Of a stretch of DNA of 64,000 nt, positions 51,008 through 53,465 are shown in pieces. Under the pieces are notes generated by a model, which was given only the letters and a program-made list of their open reading frames with translations, did no database searches and was not told the DNA's origin. This DNA comes from Deltaproteobacteria bacterium (GTDB lineage: Bacteria > Myxococcota_A > UBA796 > SXON01): the NCBI GenBank assembly GCA_947490345.1, contig CANLGL010000003.1, forward strand, positions 62,001-126,000. Reading direction: 5' to 3'. The stretch's first letter is position 1, and each line of letters opens with the position of its first letter. The position numbers were made by a program, and so were the translations under genes.

Positions 51008-51427
51008 TCAGCGAAACGGATTCTCGATCCGGAGCTCACCGATGCGCTGGCCGTCTTGGAGGTCCTCCGTGAACAGGGTGGTGCAGCCGCCCTGGATCGC
51101 GGCCGCCACGATCATCGCATGGTAGAGGGAGAATCCCCAGCGGCCTCGCAGCGCCAGGGCCTCCCGGTAGAGGTCTGGCTCGGGGAAGACCCGACAGAGA
51201 GGCAGGAGCACCAGGTCGAGGTACTCCCTCGCCTCGGCGGTGGTCATCGGCGTTGCGAACTTGCGGAGCGCCACGTTGAGGAACTCCTGGACCACCTGGA
51301 AGCTGATCGTTCCCGCCCCGCCGAGCGCCCCGGCGACGAGCTCCCGCGACCGGGCGCGCTTGGCGGGTTGGGAGCTGTCGAAGCCGTAGACGACAACGTT
51401 GGTGTCGAGAAAATACCTACCGCTCAT
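51008..51427 (-). CDS. PIN-domain toxin (VapC-like)
   Basis: RYFLDTNVVVYGFD; FSLYHAMIVAAAI; TLFTEDLQDG. Confidence 0.9.
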   Translation of the reverse strand: MSGRYFLDTNVVVYGFDSSQPAKRARSRELVAGALGGAGTISFQVVQEFLNVALRKFATPMTTAEAREYLDLVLLPLCRVFPEPDLYREALALRGRWGFSLYHAMIVAAAIQGGCTTLFTEDLQDGQRIGELRIENPFR

Positions 51428-51638
51428 TCAGCTCATCCCGCGAAAACGGACCGCCCGATTCGACGTGGGCCAGCCGCTTGAGCAGGCCGTCGTGGGCCTG
51501 ACGGAGCCTCTCCTCGGCGACGTACCCCTCCAGCCACAGCCGAAAGACGACGTTGAGCGTGGTCTGCTGCCGCTGAGCACGCTCCCGCGCTTGCTCGATG
51601 AGGTGCTCGTCGGCGGTGAGCGTGACGTTGCGCAGCAT
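51417..51638 (-). CDS. Antitoxin of PIN-domain TA pair (RHH-like)
   Basis: MLRNVTLTADEHLIEQARERAQRQQTTLN; overlaps the toxin start by 11 nt. Confidence 0.8.
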   Translation of the reverse strand: MLRNVTLTADEHLIEQARERAQRQQTTLNVVFRLWLEGYVAEERLRQAHDGLLKRLAHVESGGPFSRDELNER

Positions 51639-51654
51639 GCTGGTCTCCACGATC

Positions 51655-51695
51655 TTCGTGTGCACGAATGTAGTGGAAGCAAGCGGGCTCGTCAA
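51655..51695 (-). promoter_or_regulatory. TA promoter with palindromic operator
   Basis: Minus strand TTGACG (51690-51695)-N17-TACATT (51667-51672); TTCGTG-N2-CACGAA palindrome at 51655-51668 touching the -10. Confidence 0.75.
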
Positions 51696-51715: not shown

Positions 51716-52714
51716 CGCAAACTTGCCATCGCCGACGCGCTCTGGCTGCTGACTGCGCTCTTCGCCGCGACGCCGCCCGTCGTCGGCTACCTCGCGCTTC
51801 CCGCGGCGCGCGAGGGTACCGCCGTGCCGCTGCCCGGCGCGCCTGGCGAGGTGACCGTCGATCCCCAGGCCGAGCTGTTCATCATCGGCAACTCGAAGGC
51901 CGGCTCCGACATTGACGTGCCGACGCTCCTCGCCGCTTTGGGGCGACCGAAGCTCAAGGTCCAGGTCATCTCGATCGGCTCGGCGACCCTTCCGGTGTAC
52001 TACGCGGTGGTCAAGAACCTCGTGGCGCCCCAGACCCGGCAGCCGGTCGTCGTCGTCTATGCGACGCCCATCGAGATCCTCACTTCGGACCTGACCTCTG
52101 ACCGTCGCGACCTGCTCTTGCGACCCTACCTCACCGCGGACGAGCCGGTGATCGGGCGGAAGCTCTACCACCACGCTCCCGACGGGCTCCAAGGCATGCG
52201 AGAGCGGGCGGTGACCGCGCGCGACGCGACTCTCTCCAGACTGGCAGACGTCGTGGCGGCGGCGGTCAGCGGGCCCCCCGGTCGGGCGCACCTCGACGCG
52301 GCGTTTGCCGAGGTCTTCGGCCAGAGCTGGGCCGCCCGTCGACGCCCGAGCCTCACCGGCGTTCCTATCGGCGGCTACCCGTCCGAGTCCGCGATCGGCC
52401 AGGTGCTCGACGACACGTTCGTGGTTGAGTTGGAGGCCGTGTGCGACGCACATGGCATCCCCTTGGTCTTTGCCGTCTCGCCGGTGACCGGGGTGATCCT
52501 TGCCCGCGAGGAGGGCCGCCTGCGGGGCATGGAGACCGTCTTGGCCGACGCCCGCGCCCACGCCGACGGTTGGTTCGTGCTCCCGAACCCCGGGCCCCAG
52601 CGCGTGCACTGGCGCGATGATGAGCACATGAGCGAGGTCGCGGCGCGGGCGAACACGGAGCTGCTTGCGTCGGAGCTGCGGCGGTTGGGCGTGCTCGGGG
52701 CGCGGGGGGAGTAG
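51713..52714 (+). CDS. Membrane-anchored SGNH/AlgJ-like protein
   Basis: N-terminal anchor, LFIIGNSKAGSDIDVPTL (GDS-like block), late WRDDEHMSE; next to MBOAT. Confidence 0.6.
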   Translation: MRKLAIADALWLLTALFAATPPVVGYLALPAAREGTAVPLPGAPGEVTVDPQAELFIIGNSKAGSDIDVPTLLAALGRPKLKVQVISIGSATLPVYYAVVKNLVAPQTRQPVVVVYATPIEILTSDLTSDRRDLLLRPYLTADEPVIGRKLYHHAPDGLQGMRERAVTARDATLSRLADVVAAAVSGPPGRAHLDAAFAEVFGQSWAARRRPSLTGVPIGGYPSESAIGQVLDDTFVVELEAVCDAHGIPLVFAVSPVTGVILAREEGRLRGMETVLADARAHADGWFVLPNPGPQRVHWRDDEHMSEVAARANTELLASELRRLGVLGARGE

Positions 52715-52727
52715 CGGCGCGCCCCGA
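52642..52727 (+). repeat. 86-bp direct repeat, copy A (3' end of SGNH-like gene)
   Basis: GGCGCGGGCGAACACGGAG...GTAGCGGCGCGCCCCGA; 81/86 identical to 53380-53465. Confidence 0.9.
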
Positions 52728-52728
52728 A

Positions 52729-52762
52729 CCGATGCCAGGGGCCAATCGTGTTCAGGCGCTGC
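52729..52762 (+). pseudogene. cinA fragment
   Basis: 31/34 identical to 53825-53858 inside cinA, including the exact 21-mer CCAATCGTGTTCAGGCGCTGC. Confidence 0.75.
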
Positions 52763-52790
52763 GAGGGCTGCGCGGAGGCGCCGCTCCTGG

Positions 52791-53192
52791 GCGGCGGCGC
52801 CGCAAGGGGGGCAGGGCGGCGGCGGTAAGCGGCCGGGGGACCGCGAGGGTGAGTTTTTCAACGCAGCGTTCCAGCCGCTCACGGCGGCCGCCCGCTGCTC
52901 CCGCAGCCCCGACGCTGGGCGGGGCTCAGGCGCGCCCCTCCAGGCGGCAGCGCGGCGGCGCCGGAGGCGGCGCGGAGCGCGGCGGCGCCGCAAGGGGGGC
53001 GGCGCGGCGGCGCCGCCGGCACCAAACAAACGACTCGAACTGACGAGTGGCGAGTTTGGTGTCGTGGCGACACCAAACTGCCCTCTCACCACCGTGAACA
53101 GCGAGTTTGGTGTCGTGGCGACACCAAACTCGCATCTCACACTTACGACCGCGGACTTTGGTGCCGCGGCGCGGCGGCGCCGCAAGGGGGGC
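52791..53192. repeat. Three copies of a 22-bp GC-rich repeat GCGGCGGCGCCGCAAGGGGGGC
   Basis: Copies at 52791-52812, 52979-53000, 53171-53192. Confidence 0.85.
53017..53171. repeat. 51-bp-period palindrome array: two full units flanked by two half-units
   Basis: AGTTTGGTGTCG-TGG-CGACACCAAACT at 53053-53079 and 53104-53130 (second stem extends to 53101-53133); half-units 53017-53028 and 53155-53171; all three intervening segments are 24 nt. Confidence 0.9.
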
Positions 53193-53227
53193 AGCGCGGC
53201 GGCGCCGCCGCCGATTCCGTCAGTCGG

Positions 53228-53452
53228 GTGGAGGCGCTGCCGGTGCCCGCCTCTGGCCTGGGCGAAGCCTGCACGGACGCCGAGGGCTACCAGTCGTATC
53301 ATGGCGACGGCGGCTGCGGCTGCGCGGCGGACCCGGGCGCCACGGCGTCCGGCACGCTGCTGCTCAGTGTGCTCGGCGTGGCGCGGGCAAACACGGTGCT
53401 GCTTGCGTCGGAGCTGCGGCGATTGGGCGTGCTCGGGGGGCGGGGGGAGTAG
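53228..53452 (+). pseudogene. Chimeric gene remnant: MYXO-CTERM-like tail joined to duplicated SGNH C-terminus
   Basis: ...HGDGGCGCAADPGATASGTLLLSVLGVAR|ANTVLLASELRRLGVLGGRGE*. Confidence 0.55.
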
Positions 53453-53465
53453 CGGCGTGCCCCGA
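53380..53465 (+). repeat. 86-bp direct repeat, copy B
   Basis: See 52642-52727; 5 mismatches. Confidence 0.9.

Follow-up and report, generated by a model that had tools for sequence, protein, structure and literature searches.

What is the short palindromic array that lies upstream of cinA in this deltaproteobacterial genome, and how did it come to be there? Within the window, i.e. the whole stretch of 64,000 nucleotides that was analyzed, it occupies part of the 0.75 kb that separates the upstream gene, which ends at 52714, from cinA, which starts at 53465. The initial annotation described an array with an exact 51-bp period and considered a REP/BIME-like element, a protein-binding array or a structured RNA. 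Here, the array is interpreted as probably being a copy of a REP-like array of tandem hairpins that lacks the transposase gene; the partner of the array would be a transposase-like protein with a Y1 (HUH) domain and a helix-turn-helix (HTH).

The feature consists of three complete 42-nt hairpin units, starting at 53020, 53071 and 53122, with 9-nt linkers of sequence TCGTGGCGA; phased on the outer stem, the units follow the pattern CACCAAAC...TTTGGTG (Table 1). The 30-mer GCGAGTTTGGTGTCGTGGCGACACCAAACT occurs twice, in exact copies starting at 53050 and 53101, precisely as had been claimed. The 51-bp register also holds, whereas the supposed half-units at its two ends belong to units 1 and 3, as their outer arms. 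TRF returned a period of 51 with 2.4 copies, the 27-nt palindrome pattern had two exact matches in the window against none in shuffles, and the fold of the 155-nt array stretch gave z = -8; the register and the palindromes are far above chance. The three 24-nt segments described as differing do diverge, but they are not independent spacers, since they recur at the copies on contigs C61 (97%) and C59 (88%); they appear to be divergent copies of a single ancestral segment.

Table 1. Features of the window array, its flanks and its other copies. Positions without a prefix refer to the window.
Feature	Position	Strand	Remarks
Hairpin unit 1	53020..53061		Outer stem CACCAAAC / GTTTGGTG; ssDNA fold z -4.2
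Hairpin unit 2	53071..53112		From sequence; ssDNA fold z -3.9
Hairpin unit 3, weak inner stem	53122..53163		From sequence; ssDNA fold z -2.5
30-mer across joint of units 1/2	53050..53079		Alternative tight hairpin, TGG loop
Second, identical 30-mer across joint of units 2/3	53101..53130		
G+C-rich GGCGGCGCCG flank	52943..53019		Similar kind beside C61, C33 and G009 copies
Left flank of array	52816..53019	+	87% identical to C5 end (133952-134154)
Right flank of array	53217..53276	+	60-bp match to C61:1408-1467 (75%), past C61 transposase gene
89-bp end of upstream gene	52639..52727	+	93% repeat at 53377-53465
Second copy of 89-bp repeat, just before cinA	53377..53465	+	From sequence
Array copy	C61:1-150		97% identical to window array
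Array copy	C59:34610-34761	opposite	88% identical to window array
Single-unit copy	C33:166-215		Same genome as window
Two-unit array copy	G009 C4:4349-4448		83%; same genus
Half-unit	G009 C6:162915		Same-genus genome

The initial annotation proposed a genome-wide count of such units, and the search placed the window family at four loci of its own genome, namely the window, C61, C59 and a single unit on C33. The genome is a 129-contig assembly in which array copies fall at contig ends, and the array counts given here cover parts of it. Partial copies were found in a genome of the same genus (G009), 20 further genomes from the family gave no match, and the exact window palindrome was absent from the viral and genome contigs searched. 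An array upstream of cinA is lacking in all eight of the other genus members examined; these members differ upstream of cinA, and no clean empty site was definable.

A RAYT-type transposase had been named as a possible companion, and a Y1/HUH gene does adjoin the closest other copy: a 266-codon gene (L008:290-1090) starts about 140 bp downstream of the C61 array, and its product gives weak matches to Y1_Tnp and to a C-terminal HTH, with Y1 below the Pfam cut-off and HTH_23 below its own. Its motifs are of the DDHVH and YCLGQFEHHG type. Among 21 relatives, H47 and H49 (HUH), Y98 and Q102 are invariant, with the motif YCLxQxxHHG, and profile matches were obtained to Y1_Tnp in 11, to HTH_23 in five and to HTH_28 in one (HTH at E<=0.05). 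A profile search of solved structures placed IS200/IS605-type transposases first, with marginal E-values; an AlphaFold model of one relative, made from single-sequence input, had a pLDDT of 42 and was left unused. The phylum sample comprised 237 genomes; the Y1-HTH family occurred in 23 of them, mostly within this order and in several copies per genome. The nearest paralogues of the C61 protein in its own genome are 61-64% identical to it.

Arrays recur beside these genes. At 13 of the 20 closer homologue loci, which represent non-independent lineages, a tandem array with a period of about 51 bp lies within about 0.7 kb (the consensus at L065 being 50-51 bp); besides these, there is one array of 52 bp and one of 62 bp, and some other loci have isolated inverted repeats of similar look. 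The arrays at different closer homologues have quite different sequences and equal 51-bp spacing, and they are found mostly just upstream of the Y1 gene, with downstream positions at L057, L071 and L077. Among the more remote homologues, part of the loci have arrays with a period of 51, 52 or 62-63 bp. At some of the more distant Y1 genes, namely L213 (G000:C93:12657-13074), L163, L172 and L061, the hairpin arrays have periods of 62-63 bp, about one helical turn above 51, and no period between 53 and 62 was seen among the clear palindromic arrays. In a genome of another family, the Y1 match at L159 (G040:C99:763-1167) is overlapped at its end by an array of about six 51-bp units (TCGATTC...GAATCGA), the sequence of which resembles the C12 unit.

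Within the present genome, five of the ten Y1 genes adjoin an array (two of these genes are on C61 and one each on C19, C36 and C93), those on C12 and C94 have isolated inverted repeats, and no clear array was found at those on C11, C71 and C105. In 825 kb of the genome, a sample selected to include known Y1 contigs, all seven arrays with a period of 51-53 were palindromic by consensus and four of them were about 0.3 kb or nearer to a Y1 gene. Related arrays are also dispersed. Six further loci, on contigs that gave no Y1 match, have relatives of the C36 gene's array, all with a 51-bp period (seven loci in total), the arrays of C12 and C19 recur on C59, and that at C61:12833 recurs on C9; the copy number per family is low, at 4-7 loci. 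Part of this spread may be due to plain segmental duplication, since several dispersed copies share flanks and no target-site signature indicating array movement was seen.

The units at different genes have one fold in common. Eleven 51-nt TRF consensus units, each placed on its own dyad axis, gave a gap-free alignment with a single plan: a short symmetric internal loop separates the outer stem (about 11 bp) from the inner stem (about 6 bp), the inner stem is closed by a short loop, and a linker completes the unit. Pairing was found in 82.9% of stem cells, a value reached by none of 500 shuffles, and it was only 30-44% when the partner was shifted by one to three columns. Because each unit's register had been picked for pairing, the register choice was repeated on shuffled units, for which the mean pairing was 56% and the maximum 63.6% (300 trials). 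Change is compensatory, with both sides varying in 14 of the 17 stem pairs. The dyad test on single arrays was non-significant for some of them (L052, L057, L066 and L064 downstream). Furthermore, the similarity of units tracks that of the neighboring proteins (Mantel rho 0.80, p = 0.0002, n = 11), both without the two most distant members (0.75, p = 0.001) and among the seven closest (0.49, p = 0.03). On the gene strand, imperfect stem cells are G-T in 43 cases and A-C in 20; this excess gives a weak hint of selection on the single strand, graded as such because units within one array are non-independent.

The route of the array to the cinA site may be read from its flanks. The left flank matches the C5 end, downstream of a gene whose counterpart in G009 has a neighbor bearing the half-unit, the right flank matches part of C61, and the 89-bp repeat pair brackets the inserted region (52639-53465; Table 1). 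Since the counterpart of the C5-end gene, the half-unit and the apparent counterpart (by eye) of the C61 S1-domain gene follow each other in G009, C5 and C61 are probably neighbors in this genome. In the simplest reading, the neighborhood spanning the C5 end to the C61 start was copied to the cinA site, and the copied locus would then have lost DNA equivalent to about C61:194-1407, including the transposase gene. The window array looks like a duplicated array locus that has lost its transposase gene in this way. The bracketed region also includes pieces of cinA (34 bp, 52729-52762) and of the C5 gene (36 bp, 52756-52791), as well as a fragment that resembles a protein C-terminus (53228-53398); the patchwork at 52639-53465 suggests copying by template switching.

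Two other features of the surroundings were recorded. A second repeat family (GCAGCgTTCCAGCCGCTCACGGCGGccGCCGGCTGCTCCCGCAGCCCCGA) is present beside the array at 52860-52917; it has six clear copies in the 825 kb, several of them directly after gene ends, and is possibly another family of extragenic palindromes. Just upstream, on the minus strand (51008-51695), a PIN-domain protein and a small ORF have a toxin-antitoxin-like arrangement.

At the level of sequence, these comparisons document the association of genes with arrays, the two-stem 51-bp plan, compensatory change, co-diversification, dispersed copies and conserved catalytic residues. They suggest that Y1-HTH proteins and 51-bp hairpin arrays form an unrecognized variant of the bacterial REP repeat system. 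TnpA_REP cleaves and rejoins REP sequences (PMC6006769), and by analogy the Y1 protein may act on the single-stranded hairpins of its own array. It would recognize these hairpins, probably as single strands exposed in replication, and nick and rejoin DNA at them, which would maintain, expand or spread the arrays; the HTH may serve to anchor the protein to the array or to regulate the gene that encodes it. A bolder proposal, which is regarded as possible and somewhat doubtful, is that of a distinct class of single-strand DNA processing, with Y---Q HTH Y1 proteins, several mutually specific protein/array pairs per genome and a period kept near 51 bp, or about a helical turn above it, under compensatory change.

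The main rival gives the HTH an operator role, in which it binds the palindromic 51-bp units as double-stranded DNA and autoregulates the Y1 gene, other copies being captured operators or passive duplicates. Most arrays are indeed located just upstream of the Y1 gene, 51 bp is about five turns of the double helix, with periods mostly at 51-53 and 62-63, about one turn apart, and a dimeric binder would keep dyad symmetry and would also yield compensatory change. However, arrays are downstream of the gene at the three loci named above, the units are hairpin-like, with two nested stems and small loops, many copies are at loci without a Y1 gene, and the preponderance of G-T over A-C is a weak hint of single-strand action. 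The operator reading is considered to be unlikely, and such a role could coexist with action on single strands. Replication stalling, slippage expansion and template-switch copying could also produce a passive tandem repeat, next to which the Y1 gene would be a neighbor without a role. The window locus, as a patchwork of duplications with the 89-bp repeats as brackets and two flanks of another locus, is in keeping with such a history, as are the common flanks of some dispersed arrays; however, it would leave unexplained the recurrence of differing arrays beside Y1-HTH genes, their common fold and period, and the way in which array similarity follows the protein tree, and we regard it as quite improbable.

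Transcription of the array into a regulatory leader or a structured RNA, the latter raised at the outset, agrees with the very stable predicted fold and the weak G-T bias but with nothing more specific. No Rfam family came near its gathering score, simple scans found no promoter-like or array-linked terminator site, and copies occur on both strands relative to their neighbors; this reading is considered very improbable. The likelihood of a CRISPR-like array is negligible: palindromic repeats do alternate regularly with segments of constant length, but these `spacers' share homology with one another and are conserved from locus to locus, and the nine neighboring proteins gave weak ATPase-type matches only and no cas gene, in accordance with the initial annotation. 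The array DNA had no match in phage or plasmid records, in which counterparts of the 24-nt segments had been envisaged, and a phage or plasmid origin was rejected. The absence of a T-run terminator was likewise borne out, the sole intrinsic-terminator candidate being a weak 5-bp stem on the minus strand (53033-53048), within chance. The open frames, previously read as a coding repeat, proved to be incidental: the window array is open in one plus-strand frame and the C61 consensus in several, other 51-bp families are interrupted by stops in many of their frames, and periods of 50, 52, 53 or 62 occur among related arrays. Integron attC sites carry the motif GTTRRRY, which GTTTGGT in the array fails to match.

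How REP-like repeats spread and why their transposases persist is an open question on which these pairs bear. Several protein/array pairs per genome keep repeat length and fold constant while their sequences diverge, and swapping proteins and hairpins in vitro among the many matched pairs would put their specificity to a direct test. Such arrays are undescribed in the literature found; subscription journals were mostly outside that search, and priority is not claimed.

The earlier suggestion of a REP/BIME-like element with a RAYT was largely right in kind, with a Y1/HUH gene beside the closest copy, paralogues with their own arrays, and dispersed copies. As in RAYT/TnpA_REP systems with REPs, BIMEs and REPINs (PMC2817692, PMC3116915, PMC6006769), a protein with an HUH motif and a single catalytic tyrosine has its own hairpin family beside its gene and elsewhere (here the C61, C36, C19, C12 and C61:12833 families), protein and repeat co-evolve, and palindromicity is kept via compensatory change. 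However, the tyrosine motif of RAYTs is Y---NP [NP(L/V)(R/K)xG; PMC2817692, PMC6006769], in contrast to Y---Q here, no GT[AG]G tetranucleotide at the hairpin foot is common to the aligned units as read from the alignment, and REPs have tens to hundreds of copies, against four loci for the window family and seven for the C36 family. The present system also differs in its HTH domain, its head-to-tail arrays of fixed period (about 51 bp) and the usually one-sided placement of the array relative to the gene.

TnpA_Y1 subclass 2.1, or TIRYT with its TIRtrons, has a C-terminal HTH of the HTH_23, HTH_28 or Bac_DnaA_C kind (PMC6006769, PMC3733652); the first two kinds, several diverged copies per genome and Delta-proteobacteria among the hosts are points of likeness. 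However, the motifs of subclass 2.1 are NHxH and Y---NP (Table 1 of PMC6006769) rather than DDHVH-type and Y---Q, and the flanks of TIRYT genes carry terminal inverted repeats with GGGGWSAS rather than 51-bp hairpin arrays. A 2018 survey reported no REP-like sequences beside these closest HTH-bearing relatives (PMC6006769). Subclass 1.2 has a Q-ending Y motif, its YIKNQKEHH and DH[IV]H being near YCLGQFEHHG and DDHVH, but is short and without REPs. Class 3 also has a Q-ending motif, and atypical hairpins, some in high copy number, flank its genes; it differs in NHVH and a CnGA foot, and neither an HTH domain nor a fixed-period tandem array is described for class 3 or subclass 1.2 (PMC6006769). 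IS200/IS605 elements share the Y1 signature, hairpins beside the gene and Y---Q, but they have several near-identical copies per genome, whereas the present paralogues are diverged, longer and accompanied by an HTH and tandem arrays. Because Y---NP, the GT[AG]G foot and a high copy number are lacking, and because the motifs of subclass 2.1 differ and no REPs are reported for it, the system is ranked as a variant: the array and its Y1 protein appear to work like REP and RAYT, but stand outside the classical RAYTs by several defining features.
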